From the NCBI RefSeq assembly GCF_019216885.1, contig NZ_JAAQRC020000001.1:5943501-6007500 (forward strand): a stretch of DNA of 64,000 nucleotides, given 5' to 3'. The notes below the pieces were generated by a model, which saw only the letters and a list, made by a program, of their open reading frames with translations, was not told the origin of the DNA and searched no databases. This document shows positions 6,989-17,010 of this stretch, piece by piece (the first letter of the stretch is position 1; every line of letters starts with the position of its first letter). The translations under genes were made by a program, and so were the position numbers. This DNA comes from Methylobacterium sp. SyP6R. GTDB lineage: Bacteria; Pseudomonadota; Alphaproteobacteria; Rhizobiales; Beijerinckiaceae.

Positions 6989-7405
6989 TTACTCGCCCGG
7001 GACCCACGGCACGTAGTCGCCGGTCGCCGCCGGCCGCTGGCCGTAGGAGAGCTGCGAGCCCCGCGGCCGGTAGGCCGCCACGGTACCGGTCAGGTTCTCC
7101 TCGTGCGGCTTCTGCCACTCGCGCGGCACGTAGGTCTCCTCGGAGGGCGCGACATCGGTGGCGTGGCAGAGCCAGCCGCGCCAGCCCGGCGGCACCTTCG
7201 AGGCGTCGGCATAGCCGTTATAGATCACCCAGCGCCGCTCCGGGCCGACCGAGCGGTCGATCAGCGGGCCTTGCGCGCGGTGGTAGCGGTTGCCGAACTC
7301 GTCCTCGCCGACGAACTGGCCGTGGCGCTTGGTGTAGAATTCCAGGCTGACGGTCGAGCCGCTCCACCAGGTGAAGATCCGAAGCAGGGTGTCTTTCAGC
7401 GCCAT
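6989..7405 (-). CDS. NADH:ubiquinone oxidoreductase subunit NDUFA12 family
   Basis: 138-residue homologue of the mitochondrial complex I accessory subunit NDUFA12 (B17.2), peripheral to the matrix/cytoplasmic arm. Seen: MALKDTLLRIFTWWSG at the start, LEFYTKRHGQFVGEDEFGNRYHRA, the diagnostic ERRWVIYNGYADASKVPPGWRGWLCH, and PHEENLTGTVAAYRPRGS. This domain pattern (strands, then Y-N-G, then W-x-x-W-L-H) is the whole family. The gene lies away from the main nuo operon, beside DUF2155, as usual in alphaproteobacteria. Confidence 0.96.
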   Translation of the reverse strand: MALKDTLLRIFTWWSGSTVSLEFYTKRHGQFVGEDEFGNRYHRAQGPLIDRSVGPERRWVIYNGYADASKVPPGWRGWLCHATDVAPSEETYVPREWQKPHEENLTGTVAAYRPRGSQLSYGQRPAATGDYVPWVPGE

Positions 7406-7701
7406 CGCGACCGTCTCTGGGCTAACGCCCCCGGGGATTGGGAGGGAGGCCCCCCGTCGTCGCGCGGGACTATGGTGAGATGCCCCCCGGATGTCCAGCC
7501 TGTCCCGCGCCGCAGCATGGCGATCCTGCGCCGGGCGCGATCACGGCCGGGTTCGGGGCACGATTTGCTAACGATCTGTGAACAAGTCGGGGACCCGAGC
7601 TTGCGCCGGCTGTGGGCGGCGCGCAGCCCCGCCGCGATTCTTCCAAGCCCGTCCTGGGCTTAAGCCGGGCCTCGGCGCTATCCACAGGAATCAGGCCCTT
7701 A

Positions 7702-7749
7702 ACACTATATGTAGGGAGGAACGGAGTCCGTCGACACTAGTTGTTGACG
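7702..7749 (+). promoter_or_regulatory. Two tandem NrdR-box-like sites upstream of nrdJ
   Basis: acactatatgtaggga (7702-7717) matches the NrdR consensus acaCwAtATaTwgtgt at about 13 of 16 positions. A weaker copy, acactagttgttgacg, starts at 7734 (about 10 of 16). The two starts are 32 bp apart, about three helical turns, which is the phasing expected for cooperative NrdR binding. A DnaA-box-like ctatccaca lies just upstream at 7678-7686. The remainder of the gap 7406-7910 is GC-rich; no cobalamin riboswitch was recognisable. Confidence 0.6.
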
Positions 7750-7910
7750 TGTGGCCGCCAGCGTCGGTAGTTTCCGGGGCATCGGACGGGGGATCCCGGA
7801 TCGGGTTCGCCCGCATCCGCCGAACCTCCCGCGCCCCGCCCATCCCCTGTAACCGGCGGACCCCGCATGCCTGCGGGCGGCCCCGGCTGTTCGTGACCGG
7901 AGAGTATCCC

Positions 7911-10900
7911 ATGCGGTTCGAGCGTCGCATCACCACCGCGGGGCAGTCGCCCTACGCCAGCATCCCGTTCCGCAAGGCCGTGAGCGAGATCCGCAATCCG
8001 GACGGGTCGGTGGTGTTCCGCCTCGACGGCATCGACGTGCCGGAGGCCTGGAGCCAGGTCGCCTGCGACGTGCTGGCCCAGAAGTACTTCCGCAAGGCCG
8101 GCGTCCCGAAGGCGCTGAAGAAGGTCGAGGAGAACGGCGTTCCCTCCTTCCTGTGGCGCTCGGTTCCCGACGAGGCGGCCCTGGCCCACCTCCCCGAGGG
8201 TGAGCGCACCGGCTCCGAGGTCTCGGCGACGCAGGTCTTCGATCGGCTGGCCGGCTGCTGGACCTACTGGGGCTGGAAGGGCGGCTACTTCACCAGCGAG
8301 GAGGATGCGAGCGCCTTCCACGACGAGCTGCGCGCCATGCTCGCCCGCCAGATGGTGGCGCCGAACTCGCCGCAATGGTTCAACACCGGCCTGCACTGGG
8401 CCTACGGCATCGACGGCCCGGCGCAAGGGCACTTCTACGTCGACTACAAGACCGGCGAGCTGACCCAGTCGGCGACCGCCTACGAGCACCCGCAGCCCCA
8501 CGCCTGTTTCATCCAGTCCGTCGCCGACGACCTCGTCAACGAGGGCGGCATCATGGACCTGTGGGTGCGGGAAGCCCGCCTGTTCAAGTACGGCTCGGGC
8601 ACCGGCTCGAATTTTTCGCGCCTGCGCGGCGAGAACGAGAAGCTCGCCGGCGGCGGCAAGTCCTCGGGCCTGATGAGCTTCCTCAAGATCGGCGACCGGG
8701 CGGCCGGGGCGATCAAGTCCGGCGGCACGACGCGCCGCGCCGCCAAGATGGTGATCGTCGACATCGACCATCCGGACGTCGAGGCCTTCATCGACTGGAA
8801 GGTCAAGGAGGAGCAGAAGGTCGCGGCGCTCGTCACCGGGTCCAAGGTGGTGTCCAAGCACCTCAAGGCGGTGATGAAGGCCTGCGTCAACTGCGAGGCC
8901 GCCGGTGACGCCTGCTTCGATCCCGAGCGCAACCCGGCGCTGAAGCGCGAGGTCAAGGCCGCCCGCAAGGCGATGGTGCCGGATGCCGCGATCAAGCGGG
9001 TGATCCAGTATGCCCGCCAGGGCTACACCGACATCTCCTTCCCGATCTACGACACCGACTGGGATTCGGAAGCCTACCTCACCGTCGCCGGCCAGAACTC
9101 GAACAACTCGGTCTCGCTCACCGACGATTTTTTGCGCGCGGTTGACGCTGACGCCGACTGGACCCTGAGCCAGCGCACCACCGGCAAGCCGGCCAAGACC
9201 GTCAAGGCGGCGGAGCTGTGGGACAAGATCGCGGAGGCCGCCTGGGCCTCGGCCGATCCGGGCCTGCACTTCAACACCACGATGAACGACTGGCATACCT
9301 GCCCGGTGGGCGGGCGGATCCGGGCCTCGAACCCGTGCTCCGAGTACATGTTCCTCGACGACACCGCCTGCAACCTCGCCTCCGCGAACCTGCTGGCGCT
9401 CTACGACCGCGGGGCGAAGCGCTTCGACGTCGAGGGCTACGAGCACCTGTGCCGGCTCTGGACCGTGGTCCTCGAGATCTCGGTGCTGATGGCGCAGTTC
9501 CCGAGCCGCGAGATCGCCGATCTCTCCTACAAGTACCGCACGCTCGGCCTCGGCTACGCCAATATCGGCGGACTGCTCATGACCATGGGCCTGTCCTACG
9601 ATTCCCGTGAGGGCCGGGCTCTCGCCGGTGCGCTCACCGCCATCATGACCGGCGTGTCCTACGCCACCTCGGCCGAGATGGCGCGCGAGCTCGGGCCGTT
9701 CCCGGCCTACGAGGAGAATGCCGACGCGATGCTGCGGGTGATCCGCAACCATCGCCGCGCCGCCCACGGCGAGGCCACCGGCTACGAGTTCCTCAACACC
9801 AACCCGGTGCCGCTCGACCATGCCGGCTGCCCGCAGGGCGAGCTGGTGGAGCATGCGCGTGCCGCCTGGGACCGGGCGCTCGCGCTCGGCGAGGAGCACG
9901 GCTACCGCAACGCGCAATCCACCGTCATCGCGCCGACCGGCACGATCGGCCTCGTCATGGATTGCGACACCACCGGCATCGAGCCCGACTTCGCCCTGGT
10001 GAAGTTCAAGAAGCTGGCCGGCGGCGGCTACTTCAAGATCATCAACCGGGCGGTGCCGGATGCCCTGCGCAGCCTCGGCTACCGCGAGGCCGAGATCGCC
10101 GAGATCGAGGCCTACGCCGTCGGCCACGGCTCGCTCGGCCAGGCCCCGGCGATCAACCCGGGCAGCTTGCGCGCCAAGGGCTTCACCGACGACAAGATCG
10201 CGGCGGTGGAAGCGGGCCTGAAGTCGGCTTTCGACATCAAGTTCGTGTTCAACCGCTGGACGCTCGGCGAGGACTTCCTCACCCAGACCCTGAAGGTGCC
10301 GGCCGACAAGCTCGCCGACCCGTCCTTCGACCTGCTCTCGTTCCTGGGCTTCAGCCGCAAGGACATCGAGGCCGCCAACGTCCACGTGTGCGGGGCGATG
10401 ACGCTCGAGGGCGCGCCGCACCTCAAGGTGGAGCATTACCCGGTCTTCGACTGCGCCAATCCGTGCGGCCGGATCGGCAAGCGCTACCTCTCGGTCGAGA
10501 GCCACATCCGCATGATGGCGGCGGCGCAGCCCTTCATCTCGGGGGCGATCTCCAAGACCATCAACATGCCGAACGACGCCACGGTCGAGGATTGCAAGAA
10601 CGCCTACCGGCTGTCCTGGACCCTGGCGCTGAAGGCCAACGCCCTCTACCGCGACGGCTCGAAGCTGTCGCAGCCGCTCAACGCCGCCCTCATCAGCGAC
10701 GAGTCGGAGGACGAGGACGAGACGGTCGAGGCCATCCTGGCGCAGCCGGCGGTGGCGAAGACCGTGGCGGTGACGGAGAAGATCGTCGAGCGGATCGTCG
10801 AGCGCGTCGAGCGCCTGCGCTCCCAGGAGAAGCTCCCGAGCCGCCGCAAGGGCTACACCCAGAAGGCCAAGATCGGCGGCCACACCATCTTCCTGCGCAC

Positions 10901-11633
10901 CGGCGAGTACGACGACGGGCGTCTGGGGGAGATCTTCCTCGACATGAACAAGGAGGGCTCGGCGCTCCGGGCCTTCATCAACAACTTCGCGATCTCGGTC
11001 TCGCTCGGCCTGCAATACGGCGTGCCGCTGGAGGAGTACGTCGACGCCTTCACCTTCACCCGGTTCGAGCCGGCCGGCTTCGTCCAGGGCAACGACGCGA
11101 TCAAGAATGCCACCTCGGTCCTCGACTACGTGTTCCGCGAGCTGGCGATCTCGTATCTCGGCCGCAACGACCTCGCCCATGTCGACCTCTCGGAGATCGG
11201 CAACGCGGCGACCGGCGTGAGCCCGGCCAAGCCCTCGGCCTCGGATTCGGTGCCGGCCCACAACGTCGTGTCGCGCGGCCTGCTGCGCGGCTCCGGCGAC
11301 CGTCTGACCCTGATCCATGGCGGTCCCGGCGGCGCGACGGCCGGTGTTGCGGCCCCGAGCACGGGCCAGTCGGCTCCTGCGGGCGGGACGGTCGTGGCGG
11401 TGCGCGGTGCGGTGGCGCTCAAGACAGAACCAAACTCCGATATGGACAGTGTGAAGTTAGGGTTCTCGAGCCCTGACAGTGACAACAAGACGATGCTAGC
11501 CGCCAAACGCGTCGAGGCTCGCCTGAAAGGTTACGTTGGTGAGGCATGCCCCGAGTGCGCAAACTTCACATTGGTAAGAAATGGAACGTGCTTGAAGTGC
11601 GACACATGCGGGAGCACAACAGGCTGCTCATAA
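7911..11633 (+). CDS. nrdJ: Adenosylcobalamin-dependent ribonucleoside-diphosphate reductase (class II)
   Basis: Reduces ribonucleotides to deoxyribonucleotides using adenosylcobalamin. 1240 residues from ATG 7911 (MRFERRITT), chosen over the upstream in-frame start at 7578 because the added residues are Arg/Pro-rich and overlap the regulatory region. Seen in order: [24 protein letters not shown] with a redox Cys, [18 protein letters not shown] (the N-C-E radical-site block, about residue 473), [10 protein letters not shown] (about 850), a TSCPD-type domain (about 980-1090) and a C-terminal Cys ribbon CPECANF...CLKCDTCG that relays electrons to the active site. Odd: from about 11421 on, codon use becomes AT-rich while the protein stays family-like, as if the 3' end had been replaced by a foreign allele. 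The DNA remains AT-rich into the next gene. Confidence 0.97.
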
Positions 11634-11656
11634 AATGAGTCTTAAATAAATACGTT

Positions 11657-11686
11657 GGGTGCAGCCTGTTGTATCAGACTGCACCC
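11657..11686 (+). terminator. Hairpin after nrdJ
   Basis: gggtgcag (11657-11664) pairs perfectly with ctgcaccc (11679-11686) around a 14-base loop, 23 bp past the nrdJ stop. It is followed by aaaa rather than a T-run, so it is at best a weak intrinsic terminator; it may also limit translation from the GTG at 11659. Confidence 0.45.
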
Positions 11687-11712
11687 AAAATGATTCAAAT
11701 TCGGGGCATGAC

Positions 11713-12363
11713 GTGTTTAGCGACAGGCCAGCAAAATTCCGCAGTTATGATACTGTTGTAGGCATAGCGGAGAAGGCGCGCCAGAAGGCTGGCCTATCAA
11801 CTGAGATAAATGTAAACTTACCTGATTATATAAATGGCTTTTTGCGATTGAGGGTTGGCTTGCCTATAGAGGTCCGTATATTTTTAAAGGGCGAGCACAA
11901 TGCGCGAGCATTTGTTGAATTCAAGAAGGACGAAAACATAGTTTTAAATGTAGAAGATGCTACATGGTTTCAAGCCGAGAGAAATTTTCCCGACGCAAAA
12001 TTTGTGATGGCGCATGAAGTAGGCCACATCATTATGCACAGACATGACGCGCTTGCATACTCAGATGCTCCCTACTTTTTTATCAGGTCACTTACCGACG
12101 AGGAGCGGGTTGAGCCACAGGCGAACTGGTTCGCGGATGCCTTCATTGCGCCTATCAGCATGCTCGAAGGAATTCGAAACGTGTATGACGTAGCGGATCT
12201 TCTGAACGTTCCTGAGACATGTGCGCGTAGGCAATTGGAGCGCATGCTTGATGATCAAAGGCGCCGGGGATTGATCACCGGCTTTGATGACATGTGCTCG
12301 CAATGCGGCGGACTAACGGTTGATGGTAGCGGACAATGCATGAGCTGCCGCGGCTGCAAATAG
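11713..12363 (+). CDS. ImmA/IrrE family metallo-endopeptidase with C-terminal Cys ribbon
   Basis: About 216 residues from GTG 11713 (an in-frame GTG at 11659 is possible but falls inside a hairpin). The zinc protease core is clear: FVMAHEVGHIIMHRH gives the HExxH metal site, and VEPQANWFADAFIAPISML supplies the downstream Glu ligand of the ImmA/IrrE family, which cleaves phage or ICE repressors or DdrO-type regulators. A small wing-like helix region follows (VADLLNVPETCARRQLERML). The protein ends in CSQC-x10-CMSC-RG-CK (12295-12360), a ribbon with exactly the Cys spacing of the NrdJ tail encoded just upstream. The DNA is much AT-richer than neighbours, so horizontal origin is likely. No cognate repressor or integrase lies nearby, and no target can be named. 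Confidence 0.85.
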   Translation: MFSDRPAKFRSYDTVVGIAEKARQKAGLSTEINVNLPDYINGFLRLRVGLPIEVRIFLKGEHNARAFVEFKKDENIVLNVEDATWFQAERNFPDAKFVMAHEVGHIIMHRHDALAYSDAPYFFIRSLTDEERVEPQANWFADAFIAPISMLEGIRNVYDVADLLNVPETCARRQLERMLDDQRRRGLITGFDDMCSQCGGLTVDGSGQCMSCRGCK

Positions 12364-12424
12364 ATAAATCATAATAATTAAAATTTTCCGACTAATCAAT
12401 AACCGATCAGATCAAAAATCTCCA

Positions 12425-12466
12425 TGTCATACTAGCGCCGCGCAGAGGAACCAGAGATAACGAGGA
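12425..12466. repeat. Degenerate copy of the TCGTCATTCC...GGGATGACGAGG repeat
   Basis: The string catactagcgccgcgcagag and the following aaccagagataacgaggag resemble the repeat at 5905-5956 with many substitutions. It lies just past the AT-rich strip that follows the ImmA-like gene (12364-12424) and marks the return to GC-rich sequence. No gene is supported between 12364 and 12945. Confidence 0.4.
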
Positions 12467-12610
12467 GAGTTACAACTGTCGCTCCGACCCCCCTGGAAAG
12501 CGCCGCCCCAATCGGCGATGATCCTGCCCGTCGGCCGCCCCGCCCCATCCGGGGGTATCGGTTCCGCGGGTGGTATGGCTGTGCGGGGAAAGAAGAGGCG
12601 TAGGATTTCT

Positions 12611-12802
12611 CCTCTCCCCGCGGGCGGGGAGAGGGCCGTGTCGCCGTTCAGGGGACACGGCAAGCGGAGGCGAAGCCGGAGCGAGGGTGAGGGGGTGTCG
12701 CCGGAAGAGGCTCCTCCGGAGACACCCCCTCACCCTCGCCCTTCGGGCTACCTTCGCCCCCGACAAGGGGGGCGAAGGCCTCTCCCCGCCCGCGGGGAGA
12801 GG
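12611..12802. repeat. Long nested palindromic repeat, family 1 copy A
   Basis: About 190 bp. Outer arms cctctccccgcgggcgggga (from 12611) and its complement ending at 12802 are each themselves palindromic. Inner arms gcgagggtgagggggtgtc (12681-12699) and gacaccccctcaccctcgc (12721-12739) pair perfectly. The whole can fold into a multi-branched hairpin. A second copy with the same architecture lies at 52814-53031. No coding content; such elements in GC-rich alphaproteobacteria are dispersed intergenic repeats. Confidence 0.8.
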
Positions 12803-12945
12803 GGTTTCCTGCGTCACTTCTTTTCCAGACAGCTCTGCACGGGCGGAGACAGGAAAAATTCCGCGCTGAGCCCAGTCCCGGACGGTCTCTCCCCGAGAAA
12901 GTCGATACGAAACCCTGCGATGTGGTGGCGTTCCAGAGCGTATCG

Positions 12946-13653
12946 ATGATCGAAGCCCCCGTCGAAGCCTCCTCGGCAGGCTCGCTCCCGGCCTCCCCCG
13001 ATGCCCAGCCCCGCCCCTCCCTCACCGAGCAGGCCGCCGCCGCCCTGCGCCGGCTGATCCTGCTCAACCTGCTTCCCCCCGGCGAGGTCCTGAACGAGCC
13101 CGACCTGGTGGCCCGGCTCGGCGTCTCGCGGACGCCGGTGCGCGAGGCCCTGAAGCTGCTCGCCGGCGAGGGCCTGGTCACGCTCCGGCGCAACCGGGCG
13201 GCCCTGGTGGCGCGGCTCGATCCCGCCGACCTCGTGCCGCTGTTCGAGCTGGAAATGGCGCTGGAGAGCTTTTGCGCCGGGCTCGCGGCCGATCGGATGA
13301 CCACCGCCGAGATCGACCGGCTCGACCGGCTCCAGGCCGCCCTGGAGGCGGCGCGGGACGACCGCGACGCCTATACCCGCCTCAACCGCCAGGCCCACCG
13401 GCTGATCGTGACCGCCGCCCGCAGCCCGGCCATCGCCGAGGCCCATGGCCGGGCCTTCGCCCGGCTGGAGCGGGCGCGTAACTTCGCCCTCGCGGCCGAC
13501 GGACGGGTGGCGGAATCTTTGGCCGAGCACCGGGCGATCCTGGAGGCCTTGCGGGCCCGGGAGCCGGAGCGCGCCCGCACCCTGATGCAGGCCCATGTCG
13601 CCCGTACCCAATCCCTGCTGGTGGTGCGCCTGACCGAGGGACCGCGCCGATGA
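12946..13653 (+). CDS. GntR family transcriptional regulator (FadR/FCD type)
   Basis: 235 residues from ATG 12946 (an in-frame GTG at 12922 is possible). The N-terminal winged helix is clear: LTEQAAAALRRLILLNLLPPG, then ARLGVSRTPVREALKLLAGEGLV, the recognition helix of the GntR family, followed by RRNRAALVARL. The C-terminal half is the all-helical FCD ligand domain (FELEMALESFCAGLAADRM..., Asp/His-bearing helices such as RQAHRLIVTAARSPAI and AEHRAILEALRA). FCD regulators usually sense small carboxylic acids. It overlaps the next gene by 4 bp, so regulator and racemase-like enzyme form one unit. A palindrome at 14453-14470 upstream of the alcohol dehydrogenase is a candidate operator. Confidence 0.9.
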   Translation: MIEAPVEASSAGSLPASPDAQPRPSLTEQAAAALRRLILLNLLPPGEVLNEPDLVARLGVSRTPVREALKLLAGEGLVTLRRNRAALVARLDPADLVPLFELEMALESFCAGLAADRMTTAEIDRLDRLQAALEAARDDRDAYTRLNRQAHRLIVTAARSPAIAEAHGRAFARLERARNFALAADGRVAESLAEHRAILEALRAREPERARTLMQAHVARTQSLLVVRLTEGPRR

Positions 13654-14327
13654 CCGATACGACGGACGCTGCCCCCCTGGCCCTCGGGGTGATCCTGCCC
13701 TCGTCGAACCGGGTGGTGGAGCGGGCGACGGAAGCGCGGCTCGCCGGCCGGCCCGTCGCCGCCTGCTACGCCCGGGTGCCCTACGGGGCGATGCTCAGGG
13801 GCGAGGGTTACGACGAATCGGTCTTCCTCACCGCCGCCGATCTCCTGACGGATGCCGGCGTGGCGGCCCTGTGCTGGAACGCCACCCGCGGCGCCGCCCT
13901 CGGCTTCACGCCCGACGAGCGCCTGTGCGCGACCGTGACCCGCCGCACCGGCCTGCCGATGGTGACGACGGCGCTCGCGGCCCGCGATCGGATCCGCGAC
14001 GGCGGCTATCGCCGCCTCGGCCTCGTGGTGCAGGGCGGGACGGAGGAGGCCGAATTGGTCGGCGCCCGCTTCGCGCAAGCCGGCATCGCGATCGGCGCCG
14101 CCCGCACCCTCGGCATCACCGAGAACCGCCTGGCTGCCGCGGTGAGCCCGTCGCGCCTCGAAGCGGCGGCGCGGGAAGCGGCCCAAGGGTCCGACGCGGT
14201 GCTGATCTGGAGCACCAACCTCCCCGGCTGGCGCCTGCCGGCCGTGCTCGACGGCGTACCGCTCCTCGATGCGACGAGCCTCGGCACCGAGGCGCTGCTG
14301 AGGGCCGCCGGGCTGTCGGTCACCTGA
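13650..14327 (+). CDS. Asp/Glu racemase superfamily protein (maleate isomerase/arylmalonate decarboxylase-like)
   Basis: 225 residues. The opening LALGVILPSSNRVVE is the signature of the maleate cis-trans isomerase/arylmalonate decarboxylase branch of the Asp/Glu/hydantoin racemase superfamily. The first catalytic Cys position is filled in AALCWNATRGAALG. The second half has LIWSTNLPGW, where the usual C-T-N has become S-T-N, so this is a one-Cys enzyme unless another Cys substitutes; that argues against classical racemisation or maleate isomerisation. Lies in an operon (ATGA overlap) with the GntR regulator and upstream of an iron alcohol dehydrogenase. Substrate not assignable. Confidence 0.8.
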   Translation: MTDTTDAAPLALGVILPSSNRVVERATEARLAGRPVAACYARVPYGAMLRGEGYDESVFLTAADLLTDAGVAALCWNATRGAALGFTPDERLCATVTRRTGLPMVTTALAARDRIRDGGYRRLGLVVQGGTEEAELVGARFAQAGIAIGAARTLGITENRLAAAVSPSRLEAAAREAAQGSDAVLIWSTNLPGWRLPAVLDGVPLLDATSLGTEALLRAAGLSVT

Positions 14328-14452
14328 CGCAAATCCGTCATGGCATCCCTGCGGTGCGCCGCGCGGATCGCCCGTTCTGAGCAGGTTTCGCATAAGTGGC
14401 TGCCGGCTTTGCGATGGAAACCTGCGACGAAACAGGAATCTCAGCGGGCGAA

Positions 14453-14470
14453 GCGTTGGCGTACCAACGC
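14453..14470. promoter_or_regulatory. Candidate GntR/FCD operator palindrome
   Basis: gcgttgg-cgta-ccaacgc, 7-bp perfect arms with a 4-bp centre. TTGG-N4-CCAA resembles the TTGGTnnACCAA-like sites of FadR/FCD regulators. It lies 122 bp upstream of the iron alcohol dehydrogenase gene and downstream of the GntR gene. The rest of the gap 14328-14592 shows no gene. Confidence 0.35.
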
Positions 14471-14592
14471 AAGTCCGCTTAGGGTCGACCTACGCCCGGC
14501 AAGAGGCGCGCGGGAGGAGACGGGACGGGCGCCGCGGCACCGGCCCGCATCCGCGCGCCGCCTCTCGGGCTCCGGTCACAGCAGGCAGCCCC

Positions 14593-15738
14593 ATGAGCCT
14601 CATCACCTATCTCACCCGGATCCAGTTCGAGCGCGGCGCCGTCCGGCTGATCGGCGAGGAGCTGGCGCTTCTCGGCGCACGCCGGCCGCTCGTCGTCACC
14701 GATCGAGGCGTCGTGGCGGCCGGCCTGATCGCCCGCGTCCTCGACGCCGCCGGCCTGCCCGCCACCACCCCGGTCTTCGACGGCACGCCAGAGAACCCGA
14801 CCGAGGAGGCGACGCTGGAGGCCCGCGACCGCTTCAAGGTGGAAGGGTGCGATTCGGTGATCGCGGTCGGCGGCGGCTCGCCGCTGGACCTCGCCAAGGG
14901 CGTGGCCCTGCTCGCCACCCACGACGAGCCGCTGGCCACCTACGCCGCCATCCTCGGCGGCATCCCGCGCATCCGGGCCGACCAGCCTCCGGTGATCGCC
15001 GTGCCGACCACCGCCGGCACCGGGAGCGAGGTCGGCCGGGCGGCGCTGATCACGCTGGCCGACGGGCGCAAGCTCGGCTTCATCTCGCCCCACCTGATCC
15101 CGAACGTGGCGATCTGCGACCCCGAGCTGACGCTGGGCCTGCCCCCCGGCCTCACCGCCGCCACCGGCATGGACGCACTGACCCACTGCATCGAGACTTA
15201 CCTGAGCCCCCGCCACAACCCGCCGGCCGAGGCGATCGCCCTCGACGGGCTCGCCCGCGCCACCCGCTCGCTCGCCCGCGCGGTCCGCAACGGCGCCGAC
15301 ATCGAGGCGCGCGAGGACATGATGATGGCCGCGCTCGAAGGCGGCATGACCTTCCAGAAGGGTTTGGGCGCCGTCCACTCGATGTCGCACGCGCTCGGCG
15401 GCCTGAAGGCCAAGCGCCTGCATCACGGCACCCTCAACGCGGTGATCCTGCCCCACCTGCTGCGCTTCAACGCGCCGGCCTGCGAGGCGAAGTATGGTGC
15501 GCTGCGCCGGGCGATGGGTCTGCCCGAGGGCGCCGACCTCGCCGCCGCGATCGAGTCCCTAAACCGCGACCTCGGCCTGCCGACGGATCTTGCCGCCATG
15601 GGCGTGACGGAGGCCGATTGCGAGGCGCTGATCACGCGTGCGGTCGAGGACCACTCGACGGCGACCAACGGCCGGCCGGTCGGGGCGGAGGAGTTTCGGG
15701 CGTTGTTCCGGGCGTCGCTGCACGGGCGGGGGGTGTGA
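14593..15738 (+). CDS. Iron-containing alcohol dehydrogenase
   Basis: 381 residues, the standard length of the group III (Fe-dependent) alcohol dehydrogenases. N-terminal NAD-binding domain with VIAVGGGSPLDLAKGVALL and IAVPTTAGTGSEVGRAA; C-terminal metal domain with GMDALTHCIETYLSP (Asp/His ligands), a second His block VHSMSHALGG, and HHGTLNAVILPHLLRFN. The family oxidises alcohols or reduces aldehydes, including maleylacetate reductase members, which would fit a carboxylate catabolic cluster. The ATG at 14593 starts the conserved N-terminus. Neighbours are the racemase-like gene upstream and the LysR gene convergent downstream. Confidence 0.93.
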   Translation: MSLITYLTRIQFERGAVRLIGEELALLGARRPLVVTDRGVVAAGLIARVLDAAGLPATTPVFDGTPENPTEEATLEARDRFKVEGCDSVIAVGGGSPLDLAKGVALLATHDEPLATYAAILGGIPRIRADQPPVIAVPTTAGTGSEVGRAALITLADGRKLGFISPHLIPNVAICDPELTLGLPPGLTAATGMDALTHCIETYLSPRHNPPAEAIALDGLARATRSLARAVRNGADIEAREDMMMAALEGGMTFQKGLGAVHSMSHALGGLKAKRLHHGTLNAVILPHLLRFNAPACEAKYGALRRAMGLPEGADLAAAIESLNRDLGLPTDLAAMGVTEADCEALITRAVEDHSTATNGRPVGAEEFRALFRASLHGRGV

Positions 15739-15820
15739 GCGGCCTGCTTCGATAGAAGTCCGATCTTGAGAACGGCATCCTGACACACGTGTCGCGGAAA
15801 ATTTTTCAACCCCACCCGCG

Positions 15821-15950
15821 ACCTCATGCTGAGGTGCGGGCGATCGAAGATCGCTGAGCCTCGAAGGAGGGCTCCAGGGATCGCAGAGATTTCTGGAGCC
15901 CTCCTTCGAGGTCAGTCGATCTTTGATCGACTAACGCCTCAGGATGAGGT
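15821..15950. repeat. Palindromic repeat of the CTCATxCTGAGGTG family (copy 1)
   Basis: Outer arms acctcatgctgaggt (15821-15835) and cctcaggatgaggt (15937-15950). Inner arms tcgaaggagggctccag and ctggagccctccttcga pair perfectly, with a further gcgatcgaagatcgc stem. A second copy lies at 21449-21685 and is interrupted by another repeat. Located between convergent genes (alcohol dehydrogenase and LysR). Confidence 0.8.
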
Positions 15951-15985
15951 GGAGGATGGGATCGACAGGTGAGCCGCCCCATTTC

Positions 15986-16894
15986 TTACGCCGTCATCGA
16001 AAACTCCGCCGCCAGCGCCGGCACCAGCTCGCCCAAAAAATCCTCGGCCGCTGCCGGCAGCGTGCGGCCCGCCTTGGCGATGAGGCAGACGGGCCGGGAA
16101 AAGCTCGCCTCGGCGATCGGGCGCGAGCGCAAGGCGGGCTCGGCCCGGATCTCGCGGACAGAGCCCGGCAGGATGGTGAGGCCGAGCCCGGCCCGCACCA
16201 TGCCCAAAGCCGTCATCATGTAGGTGGCCTCGCAGGCCGTCACCGGCAGGCGGCCGGCGGCCACGAAGGCGGCGTCGACCACCGCGCGCACGCTGGTCTC
16301 GGCATCCATCAGCACCAGCGGGTACTCGGCCAGGGCTTCCAGCGTCACGATCTCGATGTCGCCGATCGGGTGGCCCTCGGGATGGACCACGTGCAGGGCA
16401 TCCGCCGCGCGGGCCAGCACCGTCACGTCGGGATCGCGCACCTCGCCGCCGGTCACCCCGAGATCGACCTCCTCGCGCCGCACCAGAGCCAGCACCCGCT
16501 CGGCGATGGCGTCCTTGACGACGAAGCCCATCCTCGGGTGCGCCGCCCGGAAGGCCGCGATCGCGTCCGGCAGCAGGCCCGCCGCCACCGAGGGCAGGGC
16601 CGCGATCCGCACCGTGCCGTGGCGGCGCGCGGCGAGGTCGCGGGTGTCGACGACGACGCTGTCGAGTTCGCGCAGCACCCGCTGGAATACCGGCAGCAAC
16701 TCGCGCCCGACCCGGGTCGGCGCGACGCTGCGGCTGTTGCGGTCGAGGAGCCGCACCGCCAGCGCCTCTTCCAGCCGGCGGATCTGCACGGTGAGGGCCG
16801 GCTGCGACAGGTTCAGGAGGGCGGCGGCCCGGGTGAAGCTGCGCAAGTGGGCCACCGACACGAAGGCGCGGACCTGGCGAAGGTTGAGATCCAT
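15986..16894 (-). CDS. LysR family transcriptional regulator
   Basis: 302 residues, the standard LTTR size. The N-terminal helix-turn-helix is textbook: NLRQVRAFVSVAHLRSFTRAAALLNLSQPALTVQIRRLEEAL, then a linker helix and the two-lobed inducer-binding domain from about residue 90 (GTVRIAALPSVAAGLLPDAIAAFRAAHP). Divergently transcribed from the CitMHS transporter with a 116-bp shared promoter region, the usual arrangement for a LysR protein controlling its divergent neighbour. Likely inducer is the carboxylate taken up by that transporter (inference). Confidence 0.95.
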   Translation of the reverse strand: MDLNLRQVRAFVSVAHLRSFTRAAALLNLSQPALTVQIRRLEEALAVRLLDRNSRSVAPTRVGRELLPVFQRVLRELDSVVVDTRDLAARRHGTVRIAALPSVAAGLLPDAIAAFRAAHPRMGFVVKDAIAERVLALVRREEVDLGVTGGEVRDPDVTVLARAADALHVVHPEGHPIGDIEIVTLEALAEYPLVLMDAETSVRAVVDAAFVAAGRLPVTACEATYMMTALGMVRAGLGLTILPGSVREIRAEPALRSRPIAEASFSRPVCLIAKAGRTLPAAAEDFLGELVPALAAEFSMTA

Positions 16895-17010
16895 AATGGA
16901 TCGTTATCCGGGCGATCCGATCTTTTCAATTGCCGGATTGCCGGCCACTTGGTGTGATTTGGCGACACTGAACGGCGCCACATCCGAGCGCCGCAATCTG
17001 GGAGGAAGCG

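Follow-up and report, generated by a model that had tools for sequence, protein, structure and literature searches.

We describe a gene pair in a 64,000-nucleotide stretch of DNA from Methylobacterium sp. SyP6R (contig NZ_JAAQRC020000001.1, positions 5,943,501 to 6,007,500 of the forward strand; hereafter the window). Here nrdJ, which encodes a class II (B12-dependent) ribonucleotide reductase (RNR), is followed on the same strand by a gene for an M78 (ImmA/IrrE-type) metalloprotease whose C-terminal zinc ribbon is, as judged from its cysteines, a redox-dead mimic of the cysteine-rich domain (CRD) of NrdJ. At the level of sequence, comparison of loci of this type shows insertion in or behind the nrdJ linker, NrdJ tails that look foreign in 13 of 23 loci and, in some loci, old C-termini left behind as remnants. 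We tentatively propose that the mimic docks the protease on NrdJ, whose linker would then be cut.

The nrdJ-protease locus of the window

The window NrdJ matches the NCBIfam model PRK07562 over its whole length (2286 bits), and its body is native up to ~11432, with a GC content at third codon positions (GC3) of 0.95. The left edge of the insertion was found by side-by-side comparison with L080, a same-genus locus that has no protease gene, and with other same-genus loci: the DNA of L080 is that of the window up to ~11436 and then continues into another, GC-rich linker. From ~11433 onwards the window NrdJ C-terminus is, by our reading, foreign and cassette-supplied, and GC3 falls from 0.95 in the NrdJ body to 0.65 in this tail (from 11433) and 0.50 in the protease gene. 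The window linker is unlike those of eight same-genus loci without a protease (L080-L087) and resembles those of L292 and Methylobacterium ajmalii L140, both of which carry one. The features of the locus are as follows.

7911..11633, + strand: nrdJ, class II (B12-dependent) ribonucleotide reductase; start ATG 7911 (by reading)
11412..11436, + strand: junction GGTGCGGTGGCGCTCAAGAC.GAACC, common to the window and same-genus L080, with divergence beyond
11433..11630, + strand: foreign NrdJ C-terminus (linker and CRD); GC 0.54, GC3 0.65
11457..11468, + strand: linker motif LGFS, of the form [LM]x[FY]S
11547..11630, + strand: NrdJ CRD with six cysteines, C-x2-C-x10-C-x2-C-x2-C followed by x5-C
11655..11688, + strand: hairpin between nrdJ and the protease gene; minimum free energy -25.4 kcal/mol, z -3.4
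11713..12363, + strand: M78 (ImmA/IrrE-type) metalloprotease of 216 amino acids; start probably GTG, in a longer open reading frame (ORF) from 11659
12013..12027, + strand: HEVGH metal-binding/catalytic motif; the codon of Glu134 lies at 12112-12114
12295..12360, + strand: predicted redox-dead CRD mimic; zinc quartet and third cysteine kept, sixth cysteine missing
12364..12470, + strand: AT-rich rest of the patch (GC 0.37), by composition

A first-pass annotation of this DNA had pointed out that NrdJ and the protease both end in C-x2-C-x10-C-x2-C-x2-C (11547-11630 and 12295-12360) with a glycine two residues before the third cysteine, and we found both the shared spacing and the glycine in place. 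Its description of the two genes as lying in one AT-rich patch holds for both tails, which are inside the patch; the patch itself begins within nrdJ, at ~11433. The protease matches Peptidase_M78 (PF06114; E 3.6e-8, 33.7 bits against a Pfam cut-off of 22), and it ends one residue past its ribbon. As P0001 (the window's own protein), P0002 and P0003 are all predicted with the corresponding start, GTG 11713 is probably the start codon.

The hairpin between the two genes recurs in L292 with a compensatory T-A to C-G change (both loci are from Methylobacterium). It was not seen in the other 11 loci checked, five of which list some other inverted repeat, and it has no match in Rfam; this conserved element is perhaps an attenuator. 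A blastn comparison of 12301-13000 with the eight same-genus loci and L115 found no displaced old tail in the window, and reading of the AT-rich patch recognised no recombinase, no recombinase-family search having been made. Among the ORFs of 7000-17000, inspected by reading, nrdJ lies 5' of the protease gene and, on its 3' side, an ORF at 12922 encodes what we take to be a GntR-type regulator. PADLOC gave no match to the cyclic-oligonucleotide-based antiphage signalling system (CBASS) in this ORF and nine other window ORFs, in a scan that did not include a search for capH. A GC-rich palindromic repeat occupies 12603-12804 and also lies ~150 bases behind nrdJ in the relative L080.

The protease ribbon as a predicted redox-dead copy of the NrdJ CRD

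The CRD of NrdJ has been studied in the Stackebrandtia enzyme (Loderer et al. 2017, PMC5704485). There, four of the six cysteines are proposed to bind zinc, with the third and sixth forming a redox pair; the zinc measurements fit three cysteines, leaving some doubt on the fourth. The same study reports that all six are needed with the reductant tris(2-carboxyethyl)phosphine, that electron transfer between subunits is possible, and that the thioredoxins and glutaredoxin tested failed as donor, the native donor not having been found.

In 37 of 37 aligned NrdJ tails, cysteines are invariant at positions 0, 3, 14, 17, 20 and 26 from the first cysteine; these rows were found with a pattern that itself contains three cysteines, by which none of 36 listed loci was lost. 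We then compared 24 proteases, from 23 loci plus P0002 (on a short contig). Cysteines 0 and 3 are kept in all 24, and 19 have the zinc quartet at exactly the NrdJ positions (0, 3, 17, 20); in two it is off by a single residue, and in three one ligand is missing or displaced. By comparison, redox position 14 is kept in 7/24 and position 26 in 5/24, and both are kept in a single locus, L114; the window protease has cysteines at 0, 3, 14, 17 and 20, and none at 26. Residues H101, E102, H105, H109 and E134 are invariant in the 24 proteases, as are Q136 and A137. The rows were picked by HExxH and the ribbon, so that what is independent of this choice is H109, E134, Q136, A137 and the loss of the redox pair.

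Profile comparisons run in both directions. PRK07562 matches the last 47 residues of the window protease weakly (E 0.018) and 12 of the 24 proteases at E <= 0.1 (best 2.2e-14; the matched range was seen for the window protein only), and the protease-family profile matches NrdJ's own tail at ~1e-7 to 3e-10 in many genomes. We therefore rejected a chance likeness of two zinc ribbons, given that the NrdJ model matches half of the proteases and that the association with nrdJ is strong (see below), and we likewise rejected an intact electron shuttle on the protease, as the redox pair is broken in 23/24. The likeness of the two tails noted at first pass is thus one of zinc site and not of electron shuttling, since the protease lacks the sixth cysteine of NrdJ, the redox partner. 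The mimicry suggested there is borne out in form, the zinc ligands being mostly kept and the redox pair lost, and the protease ribbon is best described as a putative redox-dead mimic in which the form of the CRD is copied. In six protease pairs synonymous sites are saturated, so that no dN/dS value was obtainable, and dN is 0.24-0.45, which fits purifying selection on the protease.

Distribution of the family and linkage to nrdJ

A global protein search with the single sequence returned three proteins, and a profile search at 1e-10 returned six, the window's own among them in each case. The family profile was made from 14 rows, one of which (L004) has an almost complete NrdJ tail at its C-terminus. 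In 199 genomes of the window's taxonomic family we found distant relatives, the better ones mostly directly behind nrdJ. At E <= 1e-13 the profile gave 45 matches in 42 of 397 genomes, with nrdJ within ~0.9 kb of 30 of them and 14 lying elsewhere, away from nrdJ. Intact ribbon-type genes number 19, in 19 of the 397 genomes, and each is found on the 3' side of nrdJ, at most 0.5 kb from it; the other 11 linked matches belong mostly to a subfamily of longer M78 proteins, encoded on either side of nrdJ. In genome G100 a broken protease copy lies 31 kb off, and the genome's own nrdJ still has a cassette-type linker. Three further genomes of the order, outside the taxonomic family (L120, L121, L122), and a Devosia metagenome-assembled genome (MAG; L142) also have a ribbon-type gene behind nrdJ, which brings the ribbon loci to 23. 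Named carriers are M. ajmalii (L140), Methylosinus sp. Sm6 (L141), Salinarimonas ramus (P0004) and Devosia nanyangense (L142).

The expectation that ribbon-bearing M78 proteases would mostly be found near nrdJ was confirmed: 28 of 30 distinct ribbon-bearing M78-like ORFs have nrdJ on the same fetched stretch vs 7 of 155 ribbonless ones, in a sample enriched by the fetching of loci through family homology or nrdJ. Three of these seven come from ribbon loci (two ribbons missed by the pattern and one second M78 gene), the pattern rule having missed L140/L292 and L300. The pairing is not strict, in that some nrdJ-linked M78 proteases are ribbonless or lie 5' of nrdJ. In the 19 carrier genomes PF06114 has 49 matches, of which 18 are the family gene, one is nearby (G157) and 30 are elsewhere; the ribbon gene of G1018 is beyond the reach of the PF06114 model in this count.

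Several loci depart from the common layout. In L307, L308 and L309 an M78 gene of the longer subfamily stands 5' of nrdJ; its product ends in C-x2-C-x13-C-x2-C and then DGD. The M78 gene that lies ~40 bases 5' of nrdJ in G117 (L317) is ribbonless. Among five stand-alone proteins of the long subfamily, the NrdJ model gave E values of 0.045, 0.12 and 0.13 in three and no match in two, weak matches that do not establish homology between their ribbon and the CRD. L313 (1-2037), from a MAG of 64% completeness, holds an in-frame fusion of NrdJ with a long-type M78 protein that may be real or an assembly effect. In L143 (G904) the ribbon-type gene is followed by another M78 gene; the record of this locus is labelled Frankia sp. 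RB7 yet is placed in the window's order, and the label looks wrong. An ORF of ~67 residues (GLDNRHRDKNGEIHRKRGNT...; L098, 2534-2737) also occurs behind M78 genes in L106 and L120 and encodes a possible partner protein; the L098 copy has no Pfam match.

Plasmids and phages yielded no close relative of the window protein (tblastn at 1e-3). Among the best 80 of 86 profile loci on viral contigs, none has nrdJ, and one M78 ORF (L215) carries some other C-terminal ribbon. A profile scan of genome contigs gave five loci with nrdJ among the 68 listed.

Exchange of NrdJ tails and displaced old tails

By our judgement of linker and tail, 13 of the 23 ribbon loci are cassette-type and 10 are native-type. 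A GC drop of at least 0.07 from NrdJ body to tail occurs in 11/23 ribbon loci vs 0/28 nrdJ loci without M78 (Fisher p 2.8e-5). These 28 controls were chosen by us and come mostly from the same genera, with the L138 relic and two loci with other M78 genes left out. Two cassette-type loci are exceptions: L116 lies just under the threshold, and in L301 the drop is confined to the linker.

In four loci (L088, L098, L106 and L112) an old tail lies behind the protease gene, which has its own, separate ribbon. These displaced tails agree with the best native tail at 74 to 78 of 87 bases and with the best cassette-type tail at 65 to 69, and by this measure they appear host-like. The left junction falls at the ALK-E codons in nine loci, by reading; strict site-specific insertion at ALK-E was nevertheless discarded as a general rule, as the junctions of L116, L138 and L299 lie further into the linker. 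In L098 the NrdJ body is closest to that of its congener L097 (0.93 of self score) and the linker and protease are closest to L106/L301, of another genus, making it one clear case, on these comparisons, of co-transfer of tail and protease. L114 (G075) has the reverse composition, a foreign nrdJ tail (GC 0.47) and a protease tail of host-like DNA (74 of 87 bases to the best native tail, GC 0.63); direct capture is therefore one route by which the protease acquires its ribbon.

A motif in the linker between NrdJ body and CRD, [LMI]x[FWY][STAG], occurs in 31 of 37 host tails, where shuffled sequences would give 1.7, and in none of the 29 distinct tails of phages or phage-plasmids (from 36 loci). 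Its [LM]x[FY]S form is present in 12 of 12 aligned cassette-type tails vs 1 of 25 other host tails, that of G157, which is also a protease carrier. The motif was found post hoc in the same data, in related sequences, and p-values overstate its case.

The first-pass annotation had considered a selfish element that supplies a new NrdJ tail. The displaced old tails support this idea directly; a fixed rule that each protease comes with its own resistant tail was rejected, because 10 of the 23 loci have native-type linkers.

Genomic setting of the cassettes

The small subunit of class I RNR (PF00268) was not found in 17 of the 19 carrier genomes (four genomes being 82-92% complete, and class III lying outside the search), and most carrier hosts appear to depend on NrdJ. 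NrdJ is also encoded by mobile elements: Bradyrhizobium phage BDU-MI-1, of a related host, has its own NrdJ with a full CRD. Another is encoded on pVL1_2, a phage-like plasmid of Methylobacterium indicum (L338), with a CRD that is 85% identical over 41 residues. From its gene content (RusA, YqaJ recombinase, SSB, MazG, thyA, DHFR) pVL1_2 looks like a phage-plasmid. IMG/VR holds 34 contigs with CRD-type tails, 23 on frames longer than 300 amino acids and 33 with all six cysteines.

We scanned the 3' flanks of M78-free nrdJ genes with PADLOC, using one ORF per flank, not always the nearest, in 27 of 28 loci (one had no passing ORF). Matches below 1e-8 were obtained in 6/27 flanks, to AbiU, PDC-S32, PDC-S60, a ThsB-like TIR protein, an LmuA-like protein and a CBASS SAVED-HNH effector, and two more were weak. 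As a control we scanned 20 of 28 listed genes from elsewhere in the window, which yielded three such matches: a mad3/AriA-like ATPase, a mad2-like methyltransferase and a ShosA match that is probably DprA. A defence hotspot behind nrdJ is suggested by these flanks; as an established fact it was dropped, since 6/27 vs 3/20 is not significant by eye, even though dedicated defence families (AbiU, PDC-S60, SAVED-HNH, TIR) are among the six. M78-free flanks with defence-type genes, DUF4062 among the types, include L084, L089, L102, L103, L104, L115 and L118. In Devosia the protease gene is followed by one for an OLD/GajA/AriA-type ATPase. Elsewhere in the window, an ATPase-like ORF at 25589-26554 matches mad3 (9e-33) and AriA (2e-12) in PADLOC and lies near an AT-rich region at 28-30 kb that is possibly an island.

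A proposed mechanism and its alternatives

We propose that the gene pair is a mobile cassette for the 3' end of nrdJ, consisting of a new NrdJ linker, CRD and stop codon, followed by an M78 protease with a redox-dead CRD mimic. The mimic would dock the protease on class II RNR at the place of the CRD of its own or a neighbouring subunit, where the protease would cut NrdJ; the likeliest site is the exposed linker that joins the body to the CRD. Such a cut would stop the electron supply and with it the synthesis of deoxynucleoside triphosphates. By analogy with the structural neighbours CapP and PprI, which are activated by single-stranded DNA, activity is expected to be conditional, with phage infection a possible trigger. 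The tail supplied by the cassette would be a version that its protease tolerates, and the target could be the cell's own NrdJ or that of an incoming phage or plasmid. The device may be selfish or defensive, aimed in either case at NrdJ. We regard docking followed by linker cleavage as possible, and tentatively as the likeliest of the explanations considered here. A special form of it, in which the cassette acts as restriction-modification at the protein level, destroying NrdJ with a non-cognate linker (above all that of a phage or phage-like plasmid) and re-tagging the cell's own with a matching one, strikes us as rather improbable; phage and plasmid NrdJ with full CRDs and with linkers that do not have the host motif would fit it, an agreement noticed post hoc.

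Several observations weigh against docking and cleavage. Ribbonless M78 genes also occur at nrdJ, and the ribbon is thus not needed for the arrangement; at L123 a ribbonless protease has a degenerate tail copy behind it (not compared with congeners). A matched tail is not obligatory, as 10/23 ribbon loci have a native-type linker, and in L088 and L303 one linker type goes with unrelated proteases. Linker and protease similarity are not significantly correlated in Mantel tests, either over the 23 loci (r 0.14, p 0.10) or over the 13 swapped ones (r 0.13, p 0.17). Structure models of the ribbons are of low confidence (protease block means 54-67; NrdJ tail mean predicted local distance difference test score 58.6 and predicted template modelling score 0.29). 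Finally, the PADLOC count (6/27 vs 3/20) does not establish a defence setting. This weak hotspot control led us to lower slightly our estimates both for docking, its restriction-modification form included, and for the decoy described next, and to raise those for the three explanations that follow it.

In an integrated decoy, the dead CRD would be bait: a phage protein that attacks the CRD of NrdJ would bind it and thereby switch on the protease, whose substrate need not be NrdJ. A dead copy of a cellular domain, set on an effector-type domain beside the copied gene, has the form of such a decoy, and the ribbon varies strongly between loci. The dedicated defence genes in some nrdJ flanks (AbiU, the CBASS SAVED-HNH effector) point the same way, and integrated decoys are described in plant nucleotide-binding leucine-rich-repeat (NLR) receptors (PMC5067614). 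However, a decoy does not by itself explain the co-travelling new NrdJ tail, unless this tail is effector-resistant, nor does it account for ribbonless M78 genes at the same locus, and the hotspot is not outstanding against its control. We consider this explanation unlikely.

To an addiction module, in which the protease attacks old-tail NrdJ, the cassette tail resists it, and recombinational loss of the cassette brings back the old tail and lets leftover protease kill the cell, with no role in defence needed, we give a similarly low probability. In its favour, displaced old tails are present downstream, class I RNR was not found in most carriers, and all 12 cassette-type tails scored have [LM]x[FY]S. 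The post hoc origin of that motif reduces its value here, and 10/23 loci keep a native-type tail, and so are without the candidate antidote, beside an intact protease. In G100 a cassette-type tail persists although the only protease copy is a broken one at a distance of 31 kb, a state compatible with addiction only for a harmless tail.

The arrangement might instead be a by-product of insertion, the protease gene having landed behind nrdJ, with the ribbon a displaced nrdJ 3' end and the tail swap a trace of recombination. L114, where the protease tail is host-like DNA and points to direct capture, speaks for this, and unrelated genes have also been received in the nrdJ flank. Passive tails, however, should lose zinc ligands and redox pair alike, and the zinc quartet is mostly kept where the redox pair is lost (the ribbon was part of the picking), despite a nearest other protease at 0.16-0.32 of self for many loci. 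In L088, L098, L106 and L112 a displaced tail is present in addition to, and apart from, the ribbon of the protease, and a tail swap is seen in 0/28 M78-free nrdJ loci. A by-product is a doubtful explanation.

Very unlikely, finally, is a regulator that tunes nrdJ expression or NrdJ level under DNA damage, as PprI does via DdrO: M78 relatives act on repressors (PMC10904395), the position of the gene close to nrdJ and on its strand suggests that the two are transcribed together, and a hairpin precedes the gene in two species, but presence is sporadic (19/397 genomes), divergence strong and insertion cassette-like, and no repressor partner was recognised beside the protease by reading.

If the module that we propose does act on NrdJ, it would be a natural protease directed against the electron-delivery tail of an RNR. 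It would then offer a handle on the docking of the class II CRD and its uptake of electrons, and on whether cells tell their own RNR from that of a phage; the swapped tails would be ready-made natural variants for both matters.

Comparison with known systems

Taken singly, an M78 domain, a zinc ribbon and an insertion into a gene's 3' end are all of known kinds, and we did not find their combination described; the arrangement of nrdJ tail and M78 protease was not found in the literature searched, a scope that leaves out preprints and most subscription journals. There is a real chance that the mechanism is new. Among M78 proteases, the family protein shows a fold like that of CapP, which controls some CBASS systems, and PprI/IrrE is a further structural neighbour. 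It differs from both in its CRD-like ribbon, in its tie to nrdJ and in that no repressor partner was recognised beside it. P0001 is matched by RmrA of RosmerTA at 1e-6 and by spr1629-type M78 proteins at ~1e-4, in the protease core only; these models are 357-400 and 377 residues long, and just their protease stretch matches the window protein. At 216-234 residues, the latter has no match to an N-terminal helix-turn-helix, and a Pfam scan to E 1 returned M78 and a weak M48 match. With the class II RNR CRD, as described in PMC5704485, the protease ribbon shares the spacing of the zinc cysteines and a similar sequence; unlike that CRD, it has a broken redox pair (23/24) and is fused to a protease and not to an RNR.

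A likeness in layout is offered by prophage e14 of Escherichia coli K-12, which sits in icd and, according to PMC4759930, gives two versions of the 3' end (icdA and icdC) with 11-bp repeats and 12 nucleotide differences. There too, a gene of central metabolism has been entered close to its 3' terminus, and both forms of that terminus are present; e14 is a prophage, whereas the nrdJ cassettes are ~1 kb and supply an end strongly unlike the old one. The corresponding trait of an integrative element, a substitute 3' end with the old one downstream, is present in L088, L098, L106 and L112. In contact-dependent inhibition (CDI) and Rhs toxins, a new C-terminal module arrives with a companion gene and displaces the old tip downstream as an orphan. 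Here, by contrast with those toxin tips, it is a housekeeping enzyme whose end is swapped, and the companion gene encodes a protease.

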